Assembly: GCA_021199855.1 (NCBI GenBank)
Contig: JAJQHD010000019.1
Span: 24,333 to 71,793 of the forward strand
From: Oscillospiraceae bacterium
GTDB lineage: Bacteria > Bacillota > Clostridia > Oscillospirales > Ruminococcaceae
Direction: 5' to 3'
Length of the DNA: 47,461 nucleotides
Positions 1-47,343 of the stretch are shown here, in pieces. The notes under the pieces were generated by a model. That model saw nothing but the letters and a program-made list of their open reading frames with translations. It was not told where the DNA came from and ran no database searches. The translations under genes were made by a program, and so were the position numbers. Position 1 is the stretch's first letter, and every line of letters begins with the position of its first letter.

Positions 1-395
1 GCGTTACAAGTATCAACTTTGATACATTTGGTGGGTGTACTAGTTTGACGAGCATAGATATTCCCGACAGCGTTACAAGTATCGACAGTTATGCATTTGC
101 CCATTGTTCTAGTTTGACAAGCATAGTTATCCCTGATGGCGTTACAAGTATAATCTATAATACATTTTACGAGTGTACCAGTTTAACAAGCGTAGAAATT
201 CCCGACAGCGTTACAAGTATCGGCAGTTATGTGTTTTACAAGTGCACCAGTTTGACAAGCATAGACATCCCTGACGGCGTTACAAGTATAAGCCACGATT
301 CATTTTATAGGTGTACTAGCTTGGAGAGCATAATTATTCCCAACAGCGTTACAAGTATCGGTAGTTATGCATTTTATAGATGTACAAGTTTGTCT
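1..395 (+). repeat. 69-bp tandem repeats encoding BspA-like LRRs
   Basis: The stretch is built from nearly identical 69-bp units (23 codons), each containing a block like gacagcgttacaagtatc and a block like tgtaccagtttgacaagc. They encode the IPDSVTSIGSYAF..CTSLTSI leucine-rich unit. Five units are visible and the array continues off the left edge, so the copy number in the genome cannot be known. Near-identity between copies suggests recent duplication or homogenisation. Confidence 0.85.
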
Positions 396-3300
396 GATGT
401 TTACTTCTATGGCACAGAGGAAGAGTGGAATGAGATAGAAATAAGTTCAAACAACAGTCCATTATTGAACGCAACTATTCATTATCTCGATGGTGATGAA
501 GAAACAGATCCTTATGTTGCTTCCGGCACTTGCGGAGACAACCTTACATGGTCACTTTCATCTGATGGCGTTCTCACTATCTCTGGAGAGGGAGATATGG
601 ATAGTTATGTCACATCAAGCCAGACACCTTGGTATTCATATAGAGAACAGATTAATACTGTAATAGTTGAGTCAGGGGTAACATCAATTGGTACTCGTGC
701 ATTAAGCTATCTGACGAATCTTAACTATGTAACCATACCTACAACTGTAACTAAAGTTAATAACTATGCGTTTGATGGGAGCACAAATATCTCTGATGTT
801 TACTATGAAGGCTCTGAGTTAAGGTGGATGGGCATTCTTGTTGGCACCAGTAATTCATATTTCACTTCTGCAACTATTCACTACCTTGGCATTGCAGAAA
901 CCGAGATTTCAGGTGCTTGTGGAGATAATCTCACTTGGACTGTTACTTCTGATGGTGTTTTGACAATTTCCGGTACCGGCGATATGTATGACTATGGAAC
1001 TTCATTGAGTACTTTTGCTCCTTGGCATGGATACAGCAGTTTTATAACTTCACTGGTTGTTGAATCCAGCGTTACCTCATTAGGCTATGATGCATTTTAT
1101 TGGAGTAAGAACCTTAAAACGGTTACGCTTCCGACGACTGTTACAAGTATTAATACATATTCATTTGATGCTTGTTCCGAAATTGTTATAGTTTACTATG
1201 AAGGAACAGTTGCAGAGTGGGAAGAAATTTCGATAAAAACCGGAAATAGTTATCTTACAGATGCACTGATAAGGTGCTCTGACGGATGGATAAACTACAG
1301 TGACACAGCAACTGTTTCGGGTACTTTCTATTACGAATCAAATATTGTTAGTGGCGGAGCAAGTTATGATTTTTACTATAGCGATTCATGGTTCTTCAAC
1401 GATCCATATACCACATATCAGTCAGAACTTGTACAGATGTCTATAAAACTTGCTACAGCTTCTATTCCACCAGAGTCAGATGCTACTGACTATGATACTA
1501 TTTTTGATCTTATGTCCAAGATCGGAATGGAAGATATGGTGTTCTCATACGAGAAACCTGAGTATGATACCATAGGTTATGCGATAGGGAGTAAGACCAT
1601 CATATCAAGCACTGGTGAAATCAGTTCTCTCATCCTCGTAACGGTAAGAAGCGGCGGATATGGAGTAGAGTGGGGAGGTAACTTCAGAGTAACTTCTGCT
1701 GGCACAGTCGCTAGTCAAATACAGTATGTATTGAATAATTCCGAAGCACACACTGGATTTGCTATAGCTGCAAACACTGTATTGGAAGGAATTCAGGATT
1801 ATGTTGATACGCATAATCTTATGGATGACGTGAAGATATGGATTTGTGGCTATAGTAGAGGAGCCGCAACAGCAAATCTTGTTGGTGCAACGATAATCGA
1901 TAATGTTGCCGGAAATAGCGATGATATTACAATTGATGGTTTGGATTTAGATGGAATATATACTTTCTGTTTTGAATGTCCATTGAACACAACTGATGAT
2001 AATGTTAGCGATGAGATCTACAGTAGTATATTAAATTTTGTGAATCCGATTGATTTAGTGCCAATGGTAGCTCCTTCTAAATGGGGATTTAAGCGATATG
2101 GAACTACTTTATACTTGTCTTCGTTTGTTAATACTGGATATTATTATTCGGAATACCGTAGTGCAATGAGGGAAACGTATACTGATATACTGATGGGAAC
2201 TTCTGCATATAGTTCTCGCTCGGTTGCATCAGCAGCAGTATCAACTTTATATGCAGTAGAAAATGTAGGTCAATATTCTGCCTTTACTAATCTAGTTGAT
2301 ACTTTGGCAGAAATAATTGAGGTGAAAAAAAGTGAAACGCTATTATCAATAGGCTCTGTGACGATATTGAATGGTAGAGCTACGGACTGGGAAACTCATT
2401 TTACTGAAATCCAAGATGACTTGATGGCATTGATAGCTAAGCTATTATCAAATGGAGAAGATGATATTGATTATCTTAATCTGATTTATCAAATAGTAGA
2501 CTTGTGTGGTGACAATGCATCGCAAAATGCTACGCTTTTAGCTACGGTAGCTGGCTATGCGGCGTTTATTGGAAAAGCGCATTACCCTGAATTGTCCCTT
2601 GCATGGCTAGATACAGATGCATGTCAGAGCTACCTTGAATCTCAATTTACTTCATCTGAGAATTATGCTTCTCACTATCGTGTAGCATCAATCAACTGCC
2701 CTGTAGATATTGAAGTATACGATTCAAACGGGTCTCTCGTTGCTCGGATAATCTCCGACGAAGTTCAGGATATCGAAAACGGCGTTGGCGCTTATATTGA
2801 TTCCGACGACCAGAAGGTTCTGATTCTCCCGACAGATATGGAATATAAGGTTTATCTGACCGCAACCGACAGCGGCGAGGTTACATATACTGTTGAGCAG
2901 TATAACTTCGATTCGGGCGAGACCGAGAAGGTTGTAAGCTACTTCGAGGTTGATGTTGAGACGGGCGATGAGCTTGTTGGAACTGTCGAGAATCTGACGG
3001 TTGTTGACGAAGCTGTATACCCGCTGACCCTCAATGATACTGAGGTTGTAGCGACTGTTTCACAGACCGGAAATGATGTTGACGAATTCTATGTTTCAAT
3101 CGGTTATACCGATGGCGGAACTGTCTCAGGCGGTGGAACTTATACGGTTGGTGAGTATGCAAAGGTTACTGCGACTGCTGATGAAGATTATACATTTACT
3201 GGTTGGTATGTTAGCGATAATCTTGTTTCAACGGATGCGGAATATAGATTCTTAGTCGATTCTGAAATTACAATTATAGCAGTATTCACTGCTTCCGTTG

Positions 3301-4826
3301 ATTATTCCGAACTCATCTCCGAAGCCGAAACCACCCTCTCCTCCACCGACTGGACTCTCACCCAGAGTGACGTCGAATCAGCAACCGGCTCAACAACTGC
3401 CGACAAGATTGCAACTCTGATTGACGCAATCCTTGCAGGATTGGGCATTGACGACAGCGTGACAGTCACCTTCACCATTACCGACATAACCGAGGCGATT
3501 GCCGGTGATGCAACCGACACGGATGGAACTGGCGGAAGCTTCACGATTAACTTCACGATTTCCGCCGGCAACGAATCGGATACATTGACTGAGATCGGAG
3601 CGATAACCGCAACGGCATATGTACACACCCATTCGCTCACTCGCGTTGAGGCTGTAGACGCGACTTGTACTGCTGAGGGCAACACCGAATACTGGTACTG
3701 CTCCGGCTGTGATAAGTATTACAGCGACGAGAACGCCGAGAATGAAATTACACTTGCCGACACAGTTACAGCAAAAATTGCTCACAACTACGAAGCAGTC
3801 GTAACAGAACCGACTTGCACCGAGGGTGGATATACAACGTACACTTGCTCCGTCTGCAAGGATAGCTACGTTGCTGATGAAGTAGAGGCAACTGGTCACA
3901 GCTATGAAGCAGTCGTAACGGAACCCACTTGCACCGAGGGCGGATACACAACTTATACTTGCTCTGTTTGCAAAGACAGCTATGTCGCCGATGAAACAGA
4001 AGCACTCGGACATGATTACACATCCGAAGTCACAAAGGAAGCAACCTGCACGGAGGCGGGTGTTATGACTTACACCTGCACCAGAGGCGACGATAGCTAC
4101 ACCGTTGAGATTCCTGCAACCGGTCATACCGAAGCAGAGGCTATAGTTGAGAATGAAGTGGCGACAACCTGCACTACCGACGGATCATATGACAGCGTAG
4201 TTTACTGCTCAGTCTGCGGTGAGGAGCTTTTAAGAGAGACGATAGTCGTCCCTGCCGCTCACACTGCCGGTACTGCTGTCAGAGAGAACATAGTCGAAGC
4301 TACACGCACAGCCGAAGGCTCTTACGACTTGGTTACATACTGTACTGTATGCGGCGAGGAAATTTCAAGAGAGACGGTGACGGTTCCTGCGACCGGAGTT
4401 GACATGATAACAGTTTGGTTGAGAACACCTGCTGATTACTCAGCTGTCAATAACGCTATTGCAAAGGCTAATGCTCTCAACCAGGATGATTACACCAACT
4501 TCTCCGCCGTAACCGACGCAATCGACGCCGTCGTCTGGACGTATAACGCACTTATGCAGTCATATGTCGACAAGATGGCGGAAGATATCGAGAACGCAAT
4601 CGCGAACCTCATCCCCGTTGGAACTACTTTTGAGGTGGTTGAGATTCAGGAACCGATTGAGGACACCAATACTGATACGGAGGAAGACGTTCCCTCACCC
4701 TTCCTTCCTCCGATACCTCAGTGGCGTCGTTCCTGCGATCTCTTTGAACTGCCGGAAGAAGTGCACATCTGTCTGGTAGCCGCATGTCTCGGCAATGTCA
4801 GTGACGCTCAGGTCGCTTGTTTCTAG
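1..4826 (+). CDS. Giant mosaic surface protein (LRR, lipase-like, Cys modules), 5' partial
   Basis: The frame is open to the left edge (codons from base 3), so the start and any signal peptide lie outside. Order of parts: BspA-like leucine-rich repeats of 23 residues (to about base 400); two modules beginning with CGDNLTW (about 525 and 915) with more LRR; a region holding GYSRGA at 1848-1865, the G-x-S-x-G elbow of alpha/beta-hydrolase lipases; an InlB-type beta-repeat (about 3110-3290, ending GWYVSD..TIIAVF); five or more Cys-rich modules with CSVC-type pairs (3630-4390); a helical FIVAR-like repeat (4400-4610). Such mosaics are common surface adhesins in Clostridia. No LPXTG motif or membrane anchor is seen. 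The last 44 codons are antisense to the araC-type gene and look non-native (PIPQWRRSCDLF onward), so the true C-terminus may be lost. A lipase activity is inference only. Confidence 0.8.
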   Translation, partial: VTSINFDTFGGCTSLTSIDIPDSVTSIDSYAFAHCSSLTSIVIPDGVTSIIYNTFYECTSLTSVEIPDSVTSIGSYVFYKCTSLTSIDIPDGVTSISHDSFYRCTSLESIIIPNSVTSIGSYAFYRCTSLSDVYFYGTEEEWNEIEISSNNSPLLNATIHYLDGDEETDPYVASGTCGDNLTWSLSSDGVLTISGEGDMDSYVTSSQTPWYSYREQINTVIVESGVTSIGTRALSYLTNLNYVTIPTTVTKVNNYAFDGSTNISDVYYEGSELRWMGILVGTSNSYFTSATIHYLGIAETEISGACGDNLTWTVTSDGVLTISGTGDMYDYGTSLSTFAPWHGYSSFITSLVVESSVTSLGYDAFYWSKNLKTVTLPTTVTSINTYSFDACSEIVIVYYEGTVAEWEEISIKTGNSYLTDALIRCSDGWINYSDTATVSGTFYYESNIVSGGASYDFYYSDSWFFNDPYTTYQSELVQMSIKLATASIPPESDATDYDTIFDLMSKIGMEDMVFSYEKPEYDTIGYAIGSKTIISSTGEISSLILVTVRSGGYGVEWGGNFRVTSAGTVASQIQYVLNNSEAHTGFAIAANTVLEGIQDYVDTHNLMDDVKIWICGYSRGAATANLVGATIIDNVAGNSDDITIDGLDLDGIYTFCFECPLNTTDDNVSDEIYSSILNFVNPIDLVPMVAPSKWGFKRYGTTLYLSSFVNTGYYYSEYRSAMRETYTDILMGTSAYSSRSVASAAVSTLYAVENVGQYSAFTNLVDTLAEIIEVKKSETLLSIGSVTILNGRATDWETHFTEIQDDLMALIAKLLSNGEDDIDYLNLIYQIVDLCGDNASQNATLLATVAGYAAFIGKAHYPELSLAWLDTDACQSYLESQFTSSENYASHYRVASINCPVDIEVYDSNGSLVARIISDEVQDIENGVGAYIDSDDQKVLILPTDMEYKVYLTATDSGEVTYTVEQYNFDSGETEKVVSYFEVDVETGDELVGTVENLTVVDEAVYPLTLNDTEVVATVSQTGNDVDEFYVSIGYTDGGTVSGGGTYTVGEYAKVTATADEDYTFTGWYVSDNLVSTDAEYRFLVDSEITIIAVFTASVDYSELISEAETTLSSTDWTLTQSDVESATGSTTADKIATLIDAILAGLGIDDSVTVTFTITDITEAIAGDATDTDGTGGSFTINFTISAGNESDTLTEIGAITATAYVHTHSLTRVEAVDATCTAEGNTEYWYCSGCDKYYSDENAENEITLADTVTAKIAHNYEAVVTEPTCTEGGYTTYTCSVCKDSYVADEVEATGHSYEAVVTEPTCTEGGYTTYTCSVCKDSYVADETEALGHDYTSEVTKEATCTEAGVMTYTCTRGDDSYTVEIPATGHTEAEAIVENEVATTCTTDGSYDSVVYCSVCGEELLRETIVVPAAHTAGTAVRENIVEATRTAEGSYDLVTYCTVCGEEISRETVTVPATGVDMITVWLRTPADYSAVNNAIAKANALNQDDYTNFSAVTDAIDAVVWTYNALMQSYVDKMAEDIENAIANLIPVGTTFEVVEIQEPIEDTNTDTEEDVPSPFLPPIPQWRRSCDLFELPEEVHICLVAACLGNVSDAQVACF
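3783..4010 (+). repeat. Two 114-bp tandem copies of a Cys-rich module
   Basis: Bases 3783-3896 and 3897-4010 encode two nearly identical 38-residue modules (YEAVVTEPTCTEGGYTTY followed by TCSVC and KDSYVADE). More diverged modules lie on both sides (3634-3780 and 4011-4390). The paired cysteines resemble a zinc-ribbon or disulfide-locked module, common in Clostridia surface proteins; which of the two is not decidable from sequence. Confidence 0.8.
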
Positions 4827-11596: not shown

Positions 11597-13474
11597 ATGC
11601 ACACAAAGCTTGAAATTGTCACTGATTCAATAAAACTATCCCTGAACACTGAAACCTTGCTCTTTATAATAGAAACTCCCGGGCACATCTGGCGTCAATC
11701 TGAGTCATTCTGCCCGGGCTTTGTTATGGATGATGGCAGTATTTTGCCGTTTTCGGGCGCAGATGTCGTCTCGCATGACCGCTATAAAAGCGGCGTGGGT
11801 GAGGGAATTCTCTCGCACTATGAGTGGAAGGATCTGGGCTTCTCGTTTGAGACTCTTTGCTGGGTGGAGACTGCCACTCAAGCTGTGCGGTTTGAACTGA
11901 TTCCCGGCGATGGCTCGCTCAGTTTCAGGAAAATCCTCTATCCCGGCTACTTCTCTTTTGAGAAGAAGAGCCCCACAGCCTACACCGTCATGCCGGTTCT
12001 GCAGGGTCTCCTGATTCCAAATACCTGGGAAAACGAAGTAGGAAAGCTTCCTTTCGACGGGCAGTTCTGCTCGTCGGGAGCATATATGCCCTGGTTTGGG
12101 CAGGTGGAGGATAAGTCAGGCTACATAGCAATCTGCGAGACTCCGTGGGACGCCGGCTACTATGTCGACCACCCGGCAGGGAGCACTTATACCCACGTCG
12201 GGACGTATCTTCTCCCGAGCCTCGGCGAGATTTCTTATCGCAGAATTATAAAGTATGTATTTTCGGACAACTGCGACTATAACGATTTATGCAAGATATA
12301 TCGAAGCTACGCCATTGAGATGGGACTTCTGACAACTCTTCGGGAGAAGGCGGCAAGAAATCCACTTGTCGATGATTTAATCGGCTCAGTAGTCGTCCAC
12401 AAGGGAATCAAGAAGCATGTTTCGCCCGATTCGAGATACTACGATAAAGACAACCCCGGGAACAACGATTCGGTCGTCCCGTTCAGCGCAAGAACTGCGG
12501 AGATTAAGAGGTACCACGACAAGGGCGTCCCGAAGCTTTATCTCCACCTTGATGGCTGGGGAGCGCCCGGCTATGACAACCAGCACCCCAACTATCTTCC
12601 TGCCTGTCCCGAAGCAGGCGGCTGGGATGGCTTCAAGGAGCTTTCGGACACAATCACTGATTGCGGCTACCTCTTCGGTCTCCACGACCAGTATCGAGAT
12701 TACTATATGGATGCCGCAACTTATGATAAAGAGTTTGCACTCCACGCTCCCGACGGCTCGGTTTTCGAGATGTCCGTCTGGGCAGGTGGGCGGCAGAACT
12801 ATCTCTGCGCCACTCAGGTGCCATATTACGTCAAGCGCAATTTTGAGGAGATTCTCCGGCACGGAATCAGGCTCCAGGCGTCGTATTTGGACGTCTTCAC
12901 CTGCAACGAGCTGGACGAGTGCGCACACCCGAGACACCGGATGACCCGCAAAGAGTGCCTTGAATACCGAAGTGCCTGCTTCAACTATCTCTGGTCGAAG
13001 GGAATCATCCCAAGCAGTGAGGAGTGCTCCGATTGGGCGATGAAAACTCTCGTCTTCTGCCACTATGGACCCTATGACTTCATGCTTCAGAGCCCCGGAA
13101 GCCCCAGGCACGGCATTCCCGTCCCGCTTTTCAACCTCGTCTATCACGACTGCATGATTCTCCCGTGGTTCATGGACAAGACGGACAGTGAGGACTACAT
13201 GCTCTATGCCATGTTGAACGCCGGTGCGCCCTATCTCGACAGGGACGGCGCCTATCCGAACACCGACGGTGCATTTGACGCCGAAGCCGAGAAGCGACTT
13301 GATGAGGAGATAGCCCGTTGCGCGGTTGTCACCGGTCTTCAGGAAAAGCTCGCAAAGTGCGAAATGCTCCGGCATGAATTTCTCTCGGAGGACTGTTCCC
13401 GCCAGCGGACAACCTTCTCCGACGGAACAACCGTCACCATCAATCTCAAGACCGGAGACTACGAAATTCGTTAA
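11597..13474 (+). CDS. DUF5696/GH101-GH129-like glycoside hydrolase
   Basis: 625 residues from the ATG at 11597 (ggagg 6 bp upstream; the upstream in-frame GTG lies in the -10 box). An N-terminal beta-sandwich (to about residue 230) is followed by a TIM-barrel part: KLYLHLDGWGAPGYDNQHPNY, then YLDVFTCNELDECAHPRH, then IIPSSEECSDW. The D of YLDVF and the E of SSEE lie where nucleophile and acid/base sit in endo-alpha-N-acetylgalactosaminidase-type barrels (GH101/GH129), which DUF5696 resembles. Assignment is by motif and moderately sure; the sugar is unknown. No signal peptide, so it is intracellular. It is monocistronic with its own promoter, next to other glycan genes. Confidence 0.65.
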   Translation: MHTKLEIVTDSIKLSLNTETLLFIIETPGHIWRQSESFCPGFVMDDGSILPFSGADVVSHDRYKSGVGEGILSHYEWKDLGFSFETLCWVETATQAVRFELIPGDGSLSFRKILYPGYFSFEKKSPTAYTVMPVLQGLLIPNTWENEVGKLPFDGQFCSSGAYMPWFGQVEDKSGYIAICETPWDAGYYVDHPAGSTYTHVGTYLLPSLGEISYRRIIKYVFSDNCDYNDLCKIYRSYAIEMGLLTTLREKAARNPLVDDLIGSVVVHKGIKKHVSPDSRYYDKDNPGNNDSVVPFSARTAEIKRYHDKGVPKLYLHLDGWGAPGYDNQHPNYLPACPEAGGWDGFKELSDTITDCGYLFGLHDQYRDYYMDAATYDKEFALHAPDGSVFEMSVWAGGRQNYLCATQVPYYVKRNFEEILRHGIRLQASYLDVFTCNELDECAHPRHRMTRKECLEYRSACFNYLWSKGIIPSSEECSDWAMKTLVFCHYGPYDFMLQSPGSPRHGIPVPLFNLVYHDCMILPWFMDKTDSEDYMLYAMLNAGAPYLDRDGAYPNTDGAFDAEAEKRLDEEIARCAVVTGLQEKLAKCEMLRHEFLSEDCSRQRTTFSDGTTVTINLKTGDYEIR

Positions 13475-13546
13475 AATGTCCAAAATCCCTTGAATCTATC
13501 CCCGCAAATTCTGACATAAAAAATTTTGATTCCCCTTGAAAAACTC

Positions 13547-13575
13547 TTGACAAGCAATGTGGGGTGAGTTATAAT
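13547..13575 (+). promoter_or_regulatory. Consensus sigma-A promoter of the adhesin locus
   Basis: TTGACA (13547-13552), exactly 17 bp, TATAAT (13570-13575): a perfect match to the housekeeping consensus. Transcription should start near 13582, giving a leader of about 195 nt before the ATG at 13778. A perfect promoter with a long structured leader suggests that control is post-initiation. Confidence 0.85.
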
Positions 13576-13580
13576 GTTTA

Positions 13581-13777
13581 CATGTGGTGGAAGGGCAACG
13601 AATTGCTTAACCACATGAATGATTGCGGGGGGTACTGGTTCCCCGGCTCGGAATTTTTTTCCGAGTTCCGAAGGAACTCGTACCCATACCAAACCTCCGA
13701 CACTATTAAAAAAGTGCAACGGAGGCATTTTTGTCTAGATTTTGACCTCCTTTGTGCGAACTAAGGAGGAATTTTTT
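13581..13777 (+). promoter_or_regulatory. Structured 5' leader with SD-hiding hairpin, candidate riboswitch/attenuator
   Basis: Seen directly: (a) 13581-13588 pairs with 13610-13617 (8 bp), inside it gcaa/ttgc closes a CGAA loop; (b) 13630-13635 pairs with 13680-13685 (6 bp), enclosing two competing hairpins, 13647-13653 with 13659-13665 (7 bp, T5 loop) and 13662-13669 with 13673-13680 (8 bp, GAA loop), which share bases; (c) cctccg 13694-13699 with cggagg 13720-13725 plus inner cact/agtg, followed by T5, terminator-like; (d) cctcctt 13746-13752 with aaggagg 13763-13769, which buries the Shine-Dalgarno 8 bp before the ATG. Segment 13721-13725 can also pair with 13746-13750 (5 bp), which would free the SD. 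I recognise no known riboswitch class. This covers the whole non-coding gap before the adhesin gene. Confidence 0.6.
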
Positions 13778-16363
13778 ATGGCGAAACGCATTATGTGCAT
13801 TATCATAAGCGTTTTAATGATCGTCTCACTCCTTCCGACCGGCGTGTTTGCGGTTGAAAACGACAGCGGAGAGTCCGCTCCGGAAGTCGTTTTAACGTCG
13901 ACAGCCGACGCCGACTCTGACGAGACGACGGATGAGGGAGATGCCTCATCAAATAATGCTGAGGAAGGAGGAGAAACAGGCGAAGCCGAAGCCGAAGAAA
14001 ACGCCGAAGAGGGCACTGAGGAAGTCATTCTTCTTGGCGCGGAAGCGAACACTTCGGTTGCTAAGATAGGTGATGTGGAGTATGAGTCTTTGTCGGCGGC
14101 TGTTGCGGCAGTACCAACTGATAGCACTCAGACGACAATTACTCTGACGGCTGATACTACAGAGTCATCTGCTGTTACTATTGAAAGTGGAAAGAATATC
14201 ATTCTTGATTTGGGTAGCTATACGCTTGATTTGGGCAGTTATACGGCTATTGTAAGTGGAACCTTAACGATACAGGGCTCAGGAACTATAACCATTACAT
14301 CGGCTGAAAGCTATTCTGCAATTCAAGTAGAAGGCTCGACTGCAAAAGTTACACTTAATAGCGGTAGCATTGTAAATAATGGTACGTACGGTTATGGCAT
14401 TTACTGTTGCGATGGCGGTACAGCCGTAATCAATGGTGGCTCTATAACTTCTCAGCAAGCGGCTCTTGCCGGAAATAACACAACCGGAGACATGAACTTT
14501 GAAGTTAATGGCGGAGAATTGACAGCCACATACGGTGCGGCAATCTATATGCCCGGTCAGATGACGCTTAAGATTACCGGTGGTACTATCAATGGCGGTA
14601 TTTCTCTCCGTATGGGTCAAGTTACAATCACTGGCGGTACTATCAATGCTACTACAAATACAAGTAACATTGATTCGATTTCGCAGTATTACAACTACAG
14701 CGGAAATGTATGGTTGGGCGATGCACTCTATGTTATGGGCGGTACTTATACTTCTAGTGACGGGACTTATAGCAATTCGCTTAGCTTAACGATCACCGGT
14801 GGTACATTTAACTGCAGTAACAGCGGTTGCAATGCCGTAACAATCTATAACCTCGGTTATGTTACTCAGACCTCAACTGTAACTATTTCTGACGGTACAT
14901 TTACCGGCGGAAGTGGATATGCAGTAGTTGATTTCAGCAGTTTAGGTGTTGAAAATGTATCTTATGGAGTTGCCGGCAACACTGTATCAACTTCAATTAC
15001 CGGCGGTACATATTCCAGTGACGTCAGCGCATATGTTGCGGATGGTTATGCATATGATTCAACCACCGGCACAGTTTCGGATGCTCAAGTTGCTTCTGTA
15101 ACATCTTCAGATGGAGCAACGACAACCACCTATTCTACATTGGCAGACGCCATCTCCGCAGCTTCGAGCGGGGACACGATTACTTTGCTTTCTGATGTCA
15201 CTGAAAGTGGCGCATACAACACAAACGGTCTATATCAGGTAAGCACCAATGTAACGCTTGATTTGGACAGCCATACTCTGACGGTAGATACCACTCGTGT
15301 TTTCGGTGTACTGAACGGCGGTTCGCTGACCGTTAAGAACGGCACTGTGAAAATTGCAGACGGCGCTACTGCAACAGGCACCCAGTTCAACATCCTTCGT
15401 GGCACATGCTCGTTCACGGCAGAGAATGTAACATTTGACGGTAACAATATTGCCGCAAACTTCCTGCATGTGGCGGCGGGCGGTACGGCTACAATTTCGT
15501 TGACCAACTGCAATATCACGAATCAGAGCGGTGGCGTTGTAGTTTACGATGAAAGTGGCGATTCAACCGTTACGCTGACCGGATGTAATTATGTGAAAAA
15601 TCCTGTTGGTGGTTCGTTGAGTAGCGCAACAATTACTTTTAATCAAAACAATATAATTGGTGAAGGTTCTACCAATTATGAAGCCAGTGGCTCGATTAAC
15701 TACACATATATCGTAGCTAACGGCGGTAGCGTTACAGCAAATCTGACTTTGGCGAGCAGTGCCAGCCTGAAAGTAGAAGAAGGCGGCAGTGTTACCGGCA
15801 CAGTCAAGGTTGATGAGAATGCTTCTCTAACCGTATCAGGCGGAACAGTAAGCGGAACCATTACGACTTCCGGCACATTCACCATGACCGGTGGAACTAT
15901 AACAGCATCAACGGGCGCATCTCAGGCTGTTTTAGTCAAGGGCGGAACTGTAAACATTTCCGCAGGCACAATAAATACAGGCAGTTCTCGTGCGCTTGTA
16001 TTCGATACTGATGTAACCGTTTCCGGAACAATCTCCGGCGGCACGTTCATCGGGAACGACATTGCCTTGCTTGCTCGTTCCAGCAGTGGCAATACTGTCT
16101 CAGTCACCGGCGGTACTTATACTGCCTCAAAGGGCATTGACCTGGTAGCTTCAATCCTGGCAACTGGCTACGGCGTATTCGACACCGAAGGCAATCCTGC
16201 AACAGTGAGCGGAAATTATTATTCGTCTTCGCTTAATGACTACACGGTCACGATAGGTACCGGCGTTGCCAAGATTGACAAGGCACGCTTCAGTCCGCTA
16301 TCGATGCGGCAGAGAGCGGCGACACCGTCACCCTGCTGGCGAACGCGGAAGTTAGCGAATTGA
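13778..16363 (+). CDS. Beta-helix surface protein, N-terminal part (frameshifted)
   Basis: Starts at ATG 13778 after the strong SD aaggagg. A clear signal peptide (MAKRIMCIIISVLMIVSLLPT, cleavage near FAV-EN) is followed by an acidic linker rich in Glu (residues 30-85), then VAKIGDVEYESLSAAVAAV, an opener typical of these adhesins, and many short Gly/Thr/Ser-rich turns (GGTITG, SGGTF, NGGS) of a right-handed parallel beta-helix. At about 16290 the frame is lost: the native reading (QSAIDAAESGDTVTLLAN) continues in the next frame from 16291, while this frame adds about 24 alien residues (PLSMRQRAATPSPCW...) and stops at 16363. One missing base (ttc-cag read as ttcag) explains it. Exported surface or secreted protein; ligand unknown. 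Confidence 0.8.
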   Translation: MAKRIMCIIISVLMIVSLLPTGVFAVENDSGESAPEVVLTSTADADSDETTDEGDASSNNAEEGGETGEAEAEENAEEGTEEVILLGAEANTSVAKIGDVEYESLSAAVAAVPTDSTQTTITLTADTTESSAVTIESGKNIILDLGSYTLDLGSYTAIVSGTLTIQGSGTITITSAESYSAIQVEGSTAKVTLNSGSIVNNGTYGYGIYCCDGGTAVINGGSITSQQAALAGNNTTGDMNFEVNGGELTATYGAAIYMPGQMTLKITGGTINGGISLRMGQVTITGGTINATTNTSNIDSISQYYNYSGNVWLGDALYVMGGTYTSSDGTYSNSLSLTITGGTFNCSNSGCNAVTIYNLGYVTQTSTVTISDGTFTGGSGYAVVDFSSLGVENVSYGVAGNTVSTSITGGTYSSDVSAYVADGYAYDSTTGTVSDAQVASVTSSDGATTTTYSTLADAISAASSGDTITLLSDVTESGAYNTNGLYQVSTNVTLDLDSHTLTVDTTRVFGVLNGGSLTVKNGTVKIADGATATGTQFNILRGTCSFTAENVTFDGNNIAANFLHVAAGGTATISLTNCNITNQSGGVVVYDESGDSTVTLTGCNYVKNPVGGSLSSATITFNQNNIIGEGSTNYEASGSINYTYIVANGGSVTANLTLASSASLKVEEGGSVTGTVKVDENASLTVSGGTVSGTITTSGTFTMTGGTITASTGASQAVLVKGGTVNISAGTINTGSSRALVFDTDVTVSGTISGGTFIGNDIALLARSSSGNTVSVTGGTYTASKGIDLVASILATGYGVFDTEGNPATVSGNYYSSSLNDYTVTIGTGVAKIDKARFSPLSMRQRAATPSPCWRTRKLAN

Positions 16364-18963
16364 TTACCATTTCCACAACGGTAAAGCTTGACTTAAACGG
16401 CTACAGCGTTACTCCGAGTACAAATTATACCGACACTAATATGATTGCCGTTGCATCAGGCGGTAACTTGACTATAAGTGATTCCGGTGAAGACGGCAAT
16501 ATTACTGCTACTAATCGTGCAATTCTGGTATATAACGGCGGTACGCTTAACGTGACCGATGGCACCGTTCATGGCGACAGCATCGGTATTTACAGCAACG
16601 GCGGTACTGTAACAGTTTCCGGTGGTACTGTTTCCTGCTATGCAACATCCAGCAACGGCACTTACACCTCTTATTCGGCAATCTACTGTGATACTACCTC
16701 CGGCGGTTCTCTGAGTATCACCGACGGTGAGGTTAGCGGCTACCGCGGAATTATCAACTGGGGTTCAACTGTTACAATCAGCGGCGGTACAGTTTCTGCA
16801 AATAGTGCGGCGTGCGCAATTCAGCAGACAGGCGGTTCGCTTACGATTTCCGACGGAACTGTAACCAACACAGGTACTGGTCAGGCGGTATACATTTCAC
16901 AGGGCGCAGAAGCTACCATTTCCGGTGGTTCGATTACTGCACCGTATGAAGGCTACGGTGTTGGAGTTCTCATTCAAAAGGGTACTCTTACCATGACCGG
17001 CGGCACTGTTTATGGTCATAACTTCGGTATCGGTACAAACGGAACTGATAGTTCTAGTTACTATCCGAACACTATCACTATTTCTGGCGGTGAAGTCAGT
17101 GGTACCTTTGGCATGTATCTCCCAGCTGTTGAGAGTACTACGACAATTTCCGGAAGTGCAAAAATCACCGGAACATCCACTGGTATTGAGATTCGTGCTG
17201 GTTCCCTGATTGTTAATGATGGAGAAATCAGCAGTACATCAACAACATTCTCCACAAAAACCAATGGTAATGGAGCAACTACGTATGGTGCAGGAATTTC
17301 AATTTCCCAGCACTCAACTGACAAGGATGTTTCCGTTACCATCAACGGCGGCACAATTTCCGGTTACTATAGTGTGTATGAGCTCAATACGTATGCCAGC
17401 AAGAACTCATCAAATGTTACCTTGACAATACCCAGCACAAGTACAGCAGTCATTAAGTCTACTGATACTAATGATGAGGACGAAGTTGAAGGTCAGGCAG
17501 TATACAGTGCAAGTGTCAGCGAAGGTACTTATGCTAACACCACCATCTCCATCTCCGGCGGTAGCTATTCCTCTCAAGTCGACCCCGCCTACTGCGCCGA
17601 AGGCTACGCCCCAGTAACGACAACTGACGAATCCGGTTACTACACCGTAACCGAAGCAGTCGTCAAGGGCTACGATAAGGACAGCGAGTACGTCGCAGGC
17701 TATGCAACCCTTGCAGATGCTTTGGCAGACGAGTCAGAAGACGTTGTAAAGCTAGTGCTCGTAGATAGTGACATAGTCTCGACTGATGCAACTGCATCAA
17801 AGACCTTGACAATTGATCTTGGCGGCAAGAACCTTACTATTGAATCCGGTGCAACCCTGACAGTCGCCTCAGGCGCAACAGTCACGATTGTTGACACTGC
17901 TGAAACCGGCGGTCTCGTCACCAACAACGGTACCATTGCAGTAGAAGGCACTCTTGACATAAGAGACCTTGGTTACACAACCGATTCTTACAGTGGTTCA
18001 GGCTTGCTCGGACATGAAAATGGCAAGATCACCCTCGGCGCAAGCTCAACATTCATCGTTCCTGATGTTTGGGCAACTGAATGGAGCAGTTTAGGCGCAT
18101 GGACTCCTAACTGGGCATCTGCCACTAGCTCAAGCGGAATCATCTCTTCTGCATCTCAGGGTGCAAAGATCTTCAGCTTCGGCAAGGGCTGGAAGTGCAC
18201 AAATGAGTTTGCTTCAACCTCTTACGTTTCCGGCACAACCTACTGGGAACTCAGTGGCACCTACCTCGTAGAGTACTTCAAGACCATCAGGGGCGGAAAC
18301 ATTGATGTTGATGATCCTGAGACCTGGACATACCCGACCAGCGACGACGGCAGTATGATCTTCGCGGGATGGTATTCAGATAGTACTTATGGCGCTGTTT
18401 ACACCGCAACTTCCGGCGAAGCCACAGCGAAGTTTGTAATTCTTAGCGGCGACAGCACTAATGCTGGTATCATTAACTTCCTTGGCGGTTCGTTGAGAAT
18501 GGATTATACCAACGAAGATGGTGGTTATAATTACACTCAGACTAGCCTGAGATTCGGCTATGATATCTTCATCCCTGACGGCGCAACTGATTACAGCTGG
18601 AGCTGGGTATATACACATGGTGGAAGTTCGACTTATTCCCTGACTGTTAAAGGCGAAAATTTCAGCTCGAACATCGCCGAGTATACATCCAACAGTGTGA
18701 CTACAAATGCCTCAACTAATGGATTCCGTTCAAATATGGTCGTTAATGGAATCAGTTCGAAATATTATAGCCGTACCCGTTATAGCCAGTTGACTGTGAC
18801 CTATGTAACAGCTGATGGTACAACGGTTACTGCAACTGAGGCAAAGCAGGAACGCACTGTAATCCAGGTTGCAGAAGCTATAATGGAAGACTACAAGGAC
18901 AATACAACTAGCACTCAGTATGTCTACGCTGAAGGCGTAAAAAGTGCTGCTAGCAATTCCTGA
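16291..18963 (+). CDS. Beta-helix surface protein, C-terminal part (frameshifted)
   Basis: Continuation of the preceding gene in the shifted frame; it has no ribosome binding site, no signal peptide and no sensible start, so it is not an independent gene. Beta-helix turns continue to about 17560, followed by a second FAYATLADAL-like opener (YVAGYATLADALADESEDVV, about 17690), further beta-strands, and a C-terminal domain of about 220 residues (from FKTIRGG at 18280) with SLRFGYDIFIPDGATDYSW and TVIQVAEAIMEDYKD. No LPXTG or hydrophobic anchor is seen. With the frameshift repaired the protein would be about 1,730 residues. Whether the shift is real, phase-variable or a sequencing error cannot be told here. 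Confidence 0.8.
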   Translation, partial: QSAIDAAESGDTVTLLANAEVSELITISTTVKLDLNGYSVTPSTNYTDTNMIAVASGGNLTISDSGEDGNITATNRAILVYNGGTLNVTDGTVHGDSIGIYSNGGTVTVSGGTVSCYATSSNGTYTSYSAIYCDTTSGGSLSITDGEVSGYRGIINWGSTVTISGGTVSANSAACAIQQTGGSLTISDGTVTNTGTGQAVYISQGAEATISGGSITAPYEGYGVGVLIQKGTLTMTGGTVYGHNFGIGTNGTDSSSYYPNTITISGGEVSGTFGMYLPAVESTTTISGSAKITGTSTGIEIRAGSLIVNDGEISSTSTTFSTKTNGNGATTYGAGISISQHSTDKDVSVTINGGTISGYYSVYELNTYASKNSSNVTLTIPSTSTAVIKSTDTNDEDEVEGQAVYSASVSEGTYANTTISISGGSYSSQVDPAYCAEGYAPVTTTDESGYYTVTEAVVKGYDKDSEYVAGYATLADALADESEDVVKLVLVDSDIVSTDATASKTLTIDLGGKNLTIESGATLTVASGATVTIVDTAETGGLVTNNGTIAVEGTLDIRDLGYTTDSYSGSGLLGHENGKITLGASSTFIVPDVWATEWSSLGAWTPNWASATSSSGIISSASQGAKIFSFGKGWKCTNEFASTSYVSGTTYWELSGTYLVEYFKTIRGGNIDVDDPETWTYPTSDDGSMIFAGWYSDSTYGAVYTATSGEATAKFVILSGDSTNAGIINFLGGSLRMDYTNEDGGYNYTQTSLRFGYDIFIPDGATDYSWSWVYTHGGSSTYSLTVKGENFSSNIAEYTSNSVTTNASTNGFRSNMVVNGISSKYYSRTRYSQLTVTYVTADGTTVTATEAKQERTVIQVAEAIMEDYKDNTTSTQYVYAEGVKSAASNS

Positions 18964-47131: not shown

Positions 47132-47171
47132 GCCGATTCATTATTAGTGCGTACAGCCGCACAGTATGAAA

Positions 47172-47338
47172 CGTCGATAGCTCTCCGCACTTTTCGTGCG
47201 ACAGCAAAACGGATATTAACCGCATTGCCGGATCACTTTTTTGCCGTAAAGCGTCCTCGGCAGTAGTCCCTTTCGCAAGCACCGACCCTGGCGGTCGATA
47301 AGGTGCTCCTACTCTTAGCATACTGCGCCTCTACCTCT
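47172..47338 (-). ncRNA. Lysine riboswitch (L-box)
   Basis: Reading the minus strand, the RNA starts gaggtagaggcgc, has aagagta a few bases later, a long hairpin (gcaccttatcgaccgcc...ggtcggtgc), then gcgaaagggactactgccga and a closing gagagctatc near 47175. These are the conserved L-box pieces (AGAGG-GCGC, AAGAGUA, the GAAAGG...GCCGA core, CUAUC at the end). It senses lysine and stops transcription through the terminator at 47105-47131. Ends of the aptamer are given to within about 5 bases. Confidence 0.92.
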
Positions 47339-47343
47339 TTTAT

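Follow-up and report, generated by a model that had tools for sequence, protein, structure and literature searches.

A putative riboswitch-like, default-OFF mRNA leader class before signal-peptide protein genes in one clade of uncultured Oscillospiraceae

Introduction

The c-di-GMP riboswitches, c-di-GMP-I (GEMM, RF01051) and c-di-GMP-II, occur in many copies per genome, make use of terminator platforms, and coordinate many secreted and surface proteins in the bacteria that possess them. In the antiterminator leaders of the LicT/BglG (RAT) type, mutually exclusive helices precede an intrinsic terminator. The c-di-GMP riboswitch Bc2 is described as being located before a collagen adhesion protein gene (PMC4933901), varied envelope targets are reported for the c-di-AMP riboswitch (PMC7266159), and a review presents orphan riboswitch candidates as conserved leaders with terminator and Shine-Dalgarno (SD) platforms whose ligand is unknown (PMC10043782).

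The leader considered here corresponds to positions 13581-13777 of a 47,461-nucleotide stretch of DNA, referred to as the window, from an Oscillospiraceae bacterium (GCA_021199855.1, contig JAJQHD010000019.1). The family to which it belongs, known here from sequence and computed folds, is similar in anatomy and targets to a multicopy second-messenger riboswitch. With the c-di-GMP riboswitches it shares varied surface and envelope targets, the apparent control of adhesins after initiation, multiple copies per genome, and terminator platforms, but its conserved core, GGGGGGUA..CCUCC..GGAGG, differs from that of GEMM and has no match in Rfam, and the 11 genomes carrying it are devoid of GGDEF domains. 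The c-di-AMP riboswitch (ydaO, RF00379) resembles the family in its varied envelope targets and in having a possible signal source, the DAC domain, in all 31 genomes of the genus; however, the leaders have no Rfam match to it either, and DAC is no marker of the clade because all 31 genomes possess it. The family differs from the LicT/BglG leaders in that the corresponding RNA-binding domain was found in none of the 31 genomes and in that most of its members hide the SD, and from orphan riboswitches in general in that it is confined to one clade, reaches 20 copies per genome, and mostly precedes genes for signal-peptide proteins. On balance, we consider it probable that the leader belongs to a multicopy, lineage-specific, default-OFF, riboswitch-like class of cis-regulatory mRNA leaders with a putative ligand.

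Anatomy of the leader in the window

All features of the leader are encoded on the forward (+) strand. A sigma-70-type promoter, TTGACA-17 nt-TATAAT at 13547-13575, agrees with the consensus at 12 of 12 positions, as the earlier note on this DNA had claimed, and a promoter-like site with at most three mismatches is present upstream of 86 of 100 family members. The leader ends at the ATG (13778) of an adhesin gene, an ORF for a signal-peptide repeat protein with a first open piece at 13778-16363 (+), for which a Pfam scan at E 0.01 returned no family. Near 16.3 kb (window 16200-18963), the adhesin gene changes its reading frame, and similar repeats go on in a different frame at 16360-18963; either the sequence is misassembled here or the gene may truly be broken.

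When folded over its 197 nt, the leader has an MFE of -74.8 kcal/mol (z -5.63), which was equaled by none of 200 shuffles, and the hairpins P1, P2, P3, and P4 all coexist in this structure. Folds were weaker in four other full copies of the same genome (z -2.8 to -4.0), and the variant copy L005 gave almost no fold signal (z -1.29). P1 (13581-13617; 13581-13588 paired with 13610-13617 and, further inside, 13594-13598 with 13603-13607 in the MFE) is located close to the transcript start predicted from the promoter. Its TGGAAG..ACCACA sequence is kept in five copies of the same genome, and the P1 regions of diverged members have different sequences as judged by eye. P2 (13627-13690) is a covarying helix with a variable tip, in the base of which GGGUAC (13630-13635) pairs with GUACCC (13680-13685). 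It begins with a G-run (segment A, 13627-13632) of six G here and six to nine in the family, followed by UA; in the MFE of the window leader, two of its first three G pair with 13689-13690. The region 13581-13690 had been read as holding two competing hairpins, but both form together in the MFE, so that there is no competition between them.

Four short segments had been recognized before, and they are located and paired as described then: segment B (formerly 1; CCTCCG, 13694-13699) and segment C (formerly 2; CGGAGG, 13720-13725) are the 5' and 3' strands of P3, and segment D (formerly 3; the anti-SD CCTCCTT, 13746-13752) pairs in P4 with segment E (formerly 4; the SD AAGGAGG, 13763-13769), with both the 1:2 and the 3:4 pairing present in the MFE. 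The family-conserved G-run is a fifth segment that was missing from this set. The burial of the SD holds well beyond this copy, the SD being helical in the MFE of all 73 SD-hiding leaders folded, the window copy included. The 1:2 hairpin had been viewed as terminator-like, and five T do follow segment C at 13728-13732, but a strict terminator scan of 13450-13850 found none, and 1:2 of the window copy is for this reason regarded as the core hairpin rather than as a clear terminator. Taken as a whole, what the earlier note observed on the leader is confirmed.

Family members and their distribution

A BLAST search of the same genome with the leader region gave seven matches: one to the leader and six to five further loci, of which one was matched twice. 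A first covariance model (R1), built from five copies, recovered these strongly in this genome together with seven weak matches; in a sample of 60 genomes of relatives it matched 11, all of the same genus, of which one (G028, match L029) was rejected by eye. A second model (R2) was built from 24 mostly compact members with the window copy excluded from training, and it recognized the window copy at E 4.3e-14. R2 had matches in 13 of the 31 genomes of the genus; those in G007 and G014 (L077 and L078) were judged by eye to be chance and were rejected, leaving 11 leader-bearing genomes. In total, 121 covariance-model matches, of which at least two (L190 and L192) are distrusted and were rejected by eye, were found in these 11 genomes at 3 to 20 per genome: 20 in G019, 16 in G029, 15 each in G000 (the genome of the window) and G001, 12 each in G008 and G025, 9 in G027, 8 in G024, 7 in G013, 4 in G030, and 3 in G005.

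The RpoB gene is present in 28 of the 31 genomes (3 are without it), and in a tree built from it the 11 leader-bearing genomes form one side of a branch with a support of 100/100. Searches of samples of the order and the class, which over more than 40 genomes used stricter filters that lose weak matches, added no member. A sample of the order (294 genomes besides that of the window) had weak matches in 25 genomes, the best at 7e-7; the 13 loci inspected comprised ordinary terminators, a hairpin next to a tRNA, and chance matches, and none was counted. In a sample of the class (391 genomes), only the genome of the window and none of the 390 others matched at E 1e-5. A scan of a collection of 84,980 genomes for the exact pattern retrieved 20 stretches, all in six MAGs of Oscillospiraceae, Ruminococcus, or Clostridiales; the exact pattern was absent from viral contigs, and a BLAST search of plasmids and phages with the window leader had no match. 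Within the reach of these searches, the family was found to be restricted to one clade of one genus of uncultured bacteria. Confinement to a single clade is unusual for a metabolite riboswitch and counts against the riboswitch reading.

Several variant leaders, L005/L017, L057, and L065, have a similar P1 and SD, with a P2 arranged around CGGAGA/TCTCCG or similar sequences in place of the normal G-run; these are a possible subtype.

Conserved structure

The main alignment (A5) comprises 100 rows, 99 of them distinct, and leans towards the structure because it was fitted to the model. Near copies (L039, L043, L048, L140, L143, L144, L147, L154, L156, L158, L159, L167, L169, L177, and L185), the three variants without a normal G-run (L017, L057, and L065), the doubtful matches L029, L190, and L192, and the window's own copy (L009) were left out. 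Its covariation score was 0.226, as compared to 0.126 +/- 0.005 in shuffled and at most 0.032 in slid alignments; 87.6% of 1683 cells were paired, and double changes were observed in 10 of 18 pairs. Covariation among the 100 aligned members is strong in P2, where pairs vary freely between GC, AU, CG, and UA, and less so in P3, in which the base is near-fixed as CCUCC/GGRGG, the sixth pair is G-C, G-U, or A-U, and the inner stem is more variable. A smaller alignment of 24 rows made with MAFFT scored 0.206 (0.162 +/- 0.012 shuffled, at most 0.075 slid), but 238 of 500 shuffles had at least as many pair types, and sliding the rows by -1 gave an equal number of double-change pairs, namely, seven. 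The five close copies on their own had no covariation (unfavorable term of +2.48, double change in 1 of 35 pairs), and the P4 stem outside CCTCC/GGAGG had none above shuffles in 49 distinct hairpins. Covariation among homologues, on which the earlier note had made its reading depend, is present, and in this respect the family has what is expected of riboswitches: ahead of genes lies a structured leader that is conserved and covaries.

Individual leaders were analyzed for the 98 rows of A5 that could be parsed (all except L161 and L186). A G-run of at least six and up to nine G is present in all 98, the three variants without it having been excluded beforehand, and the last three G suffice for the base of P2. 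An upstream partner for the 5' half of the run was dropped because such pairing, seen in 29 of 98 members, was no commoner than with shuffled upstream sequence (40%).

Output layouts and switching

Inspection of the 100 leaders by eye revealed four layouts. The SD is hidden by a separate anti-SD strand in 74, the window copy included; a separate terminator hairpin is present in 19; in 4, a U-rich tract follows the core hairpin P3, which thus serves as the terminator; and in 3, the SD is formed by the 3' strand of P3. These counts replace a sorting by script, which had assigned 79 SD-hiding and 12 terminator leaders and left 7 of 98 unsorted. A second CCTCC was found in 69 of 73 SD-hiding leaders. 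In 10 of the 12 terminator leaders found by the script, the 5' arm of the terminator can form five or more contiguous pairs with segment C; when 1508 control hairpins were matched at random to these C segments, about 25% of the combinations could do so. Among the twelve, at least three (L018, L146, and L160) have closely related sequences, which L026 resembles, and the four with the longest C:D runs resemble one another in sequence. The terminator leader L058 folds with a z of -6.6. The family thus has, by sequence and computed folds, the expression platform expected of a riboswitch, in the form of a terminator or of SD sequestration. Given members that hide the SD and others with true terminators, the family looks to be cis-regulatory and to act after initiation, the stage at which the earlier note thought regulation probable. 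Judged by its anatomy, the B:C pairing would correspond to OFF in all four layouts, the sign being unchanged because they differ by the addition or removal of one C:D/D:E step.

In computed energy, OFF is the ground state, with B:C in the MFE of 67 and D:E in that of 68 of the 73 SD leaders. When B:C was forbidden, neither A:B nor C:D appeared in the MFE of any of 98 leaders. To force C:D had a median cost of 5.3 kcal/mol in SD leaders, and the SD was still paired in 56 of 73 of these folds, in the examples inspected with segment B; to force A:B and C:D together had a median cost of 9.6 kcal/mol in SD leaders (lowest 0.0) and 11.9 kcal/mol in terminator leaders, and cost 15.3 kcal/mol in the window leader. 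In transcripts ending after segment B, A:B was part of the MFE in 36 of 98. The complementarity for the alternative pairing is conserved across the family, but its computed energy disfavors it. Because B, C, and the G-run are nearly invariant, covariation gives almost no support to the pairings A:B and C:D. As judged by eye, A:B is compatible with three odd members: L165, in which GGGGGGGAU can pair with AUCCCUCC; L166, in which GGGGUU can pair with AACUCC and the CCC of the P2 base is lost; and L042. The proposal that a 2:3 pairing frees the SD is thus matched by conserved complementarity but disfavored by the computed folds.

Switching itself is inferred, and the most economical reading is that of a leader that is OFF by default and needs a signal in order to open. 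The parts supported by comparison are the G-run, P2, P3, and the output hairpin P4, which hides the SD or terminates transcription. The default fold of P2, P3, and P4 would be OFF. The signal would most likely be a small molecule that binds in the vicinity of the G-run, P2, and the linker between P2 and P3; it would cause A to pair with B, upon which C would capture D and the SD in E would be released. The same parts would also fit a ligand that acts in the opposite sense and holds the leader OFF. The attenuator-like switch proposed for the window leader is thereby partly supported: the leader family looks cis-regulatory, but the switching is putative and c-di-GMP, the first ligand proposed, is very unlikely.

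Candidate signals and readers

At curated thresholds, the only Rfam match in the whole window was off the leader, a lysine riboswitch (RF00168, 75.6 bits) at 47170-47341 (-) near the window edge. At lax thresholds, no family matched the core in window 13400-14000 or in 38 loci of the family, in agreement with the earlier note, which could match the leader to no riboswitch class familiar to it. A number of weak matches below gathering scores were rejected: three in the window, off the leader; mir-255 over the terminator hairpin of L058 and bglG-cis-reg upstream in the same leader; MIR6143 in L041; and RUF1 just upstream of the core of L150. One true tRNA is located within L052.

That the leaders are a diverged c-di-GMP riboswitch (GEMM or class II), or another known riboswitch below the Rfam threshold, might be suspected from their targets, since adhesin-like proteins, an exopolysaccharide chain-length protein, and peptides resemble a c-di-GMP regulon. 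However, the core has no match even at lax thresholds, and GGDEF domains were found in none of the 11 leader-bearing genomes (G000, G001, G005, G008, G013, G019, G024, G025, G027, G029, and G030) but in 18 of the 31 genomes of the genus, that is, in 18 of the 20 without leaders (G023 and G026, both leader-less, are also without). GEMM, moreover, was identified only in two GGDEF-bearing genomes of the genus and in no leader-bearing one. We therefore regard such an origin as highly improbable. The absence of GGDEF from the 11 genomes likewise strongly disfavors c-di-GMP, or cGAMP made by GGDEF enzymes, as the ligand. The absence of the domain perhaps goes back to a single event on the tree and is therefore not independent statistical support for a replacement of c-di-GMP signaling. 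With DAC found in 31 of 31 genomes, c-di-AMP is a candidate signal.

The readers of the leaders could also be proteins. An AUG-started ORF runs through the leader, but its length, 60 aa in the window copy, varies from 5 to 60 aa among 12 close copies including that of the window; it therefore encodes no conserved leader peptide, and leader-peptide attenuation was rejected for this reason. An RNA-binding protein (an antiterminator or a translational activator or repressor) that reads the leaders with no small molecule involved is a more serious contender, although an unlikely one: a binding site for a protein would be in keeping with the large number of copies, their nearly invariant core, and the scarcity of conserved bases that are unpaired, and a strongly OFF default would need an active opener. 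Conversely, the sequence and the tip of P2 vary freely, and neither CsrA nor the LicT/BglG RNA-binding domain (CAT_RBD) was detected in any of the 31 genomes, although their presence would be expected for CsrA-regulated or antiterminator leaders, respectively; these are the two families looked for, and another protein could fill the role.

Should the small-molecule reading hold, the family would be a new riboswitch class of about 120 members in 11 genomes. Its ligand would reveal the signal by which a GGDEF-less Oscillospiraceae lineage chooses the surface proteins that it displays. It would also follow that a class of regulatory RNAs can originate and multiply within a single clade of a genus, a point relevant to how many rare riboswitches are still unseen. 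The family is seemingly undescribed: among the open-licence papers listed, no title or abstract opening describes the motif, so that an earlier description in print may exist, and the terms sought are absent from PMC8040213.

Target genes and cassette

On our own gene calls, signal-peptide proteins are encoded downstream of 78 of 100 copies according to a heuristic that errs in both directions, and many of the downstream proteins have repeats, apparently beta-helix-like or BspA-like. The leader is present before related adhesin genes, which the earlier note had held to be essential. A further target reaches into the window: L018, a terminator-type copy (G000:C27:23034-23108), lies about 1.2 kb before the window, and the signal-peptide ORF behind it continues into the first ORF of the window (3-4826, +; 1607 aa, open at the window edge), which is the second gene in the window to stand behind a copy of the leader. 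Among nine other downstream proteins scanned, three had no Pfam family over the cut-off; the families over the cut-offs were Peptidase_S26 (signal peptidase), PP2C, FHA together with DUF6382, Wzz, YbjN, and Acyl_transf_3. The class would in this way adjust the expression of many secreted and surface proteins in the clade in concert.

Promoter, leader, and signal peptide seem to move as a unit, judged from pairs of leaders within a genome: stretches of 504 bp (99.6% identity), 340 bp (97.9%), and 257 bp (95.3%) are shared, and the genes diverge beyond them. Near-identical promoter-leader-signal-peptide blocks ahead of diverging sequences are also what would be seen if the leaders sensed nothing and imposed a fixed low translation or transcription on secreted proteins, being copied as a cassette, and an OFF state that is far stabler than the ON state in computed energy would agree with this. 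Yet the four output layouts share parity and core, and at least six G are kept in every parsed member while the base of P2 uses the last three only; a fixed attenuator would require neither the one nor the other. Such non-sensing leaders thus appear rather improbable. Returning to a sensing leader, it may be, and we advance this tentatively, that a clade without c-di-GMP signaling evolved its own riboswitch class, with a putative ligand, as a shared control of much of its secretome. This class would have spread as a promoter-leader-signal-peptide cassette, and its chain of five strands (G-run, CCUCC, GGAGG, CCUCC, and SD) could lose two strands or gain a terminator and still keep its sign.

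The terminator-type leaders L019, L027, L040, L058, L062, L174, and L183 precede genes for FHA, PP2C, and YbjN proteins (by Pfam) and for Sel1-like and small proteins (by eye), which may form one phospho-signaling or secretion module. Four copies, L012 (approximately 1688-1807), L030, L050, and L052, precede short Gly-rich peptides, e.g., MDKVYEEPKFVII..., which look RiPP-like. These loci may be a RiPP cluster; at L012, the peptide is followed by a protein that looks HprK-like by eye.
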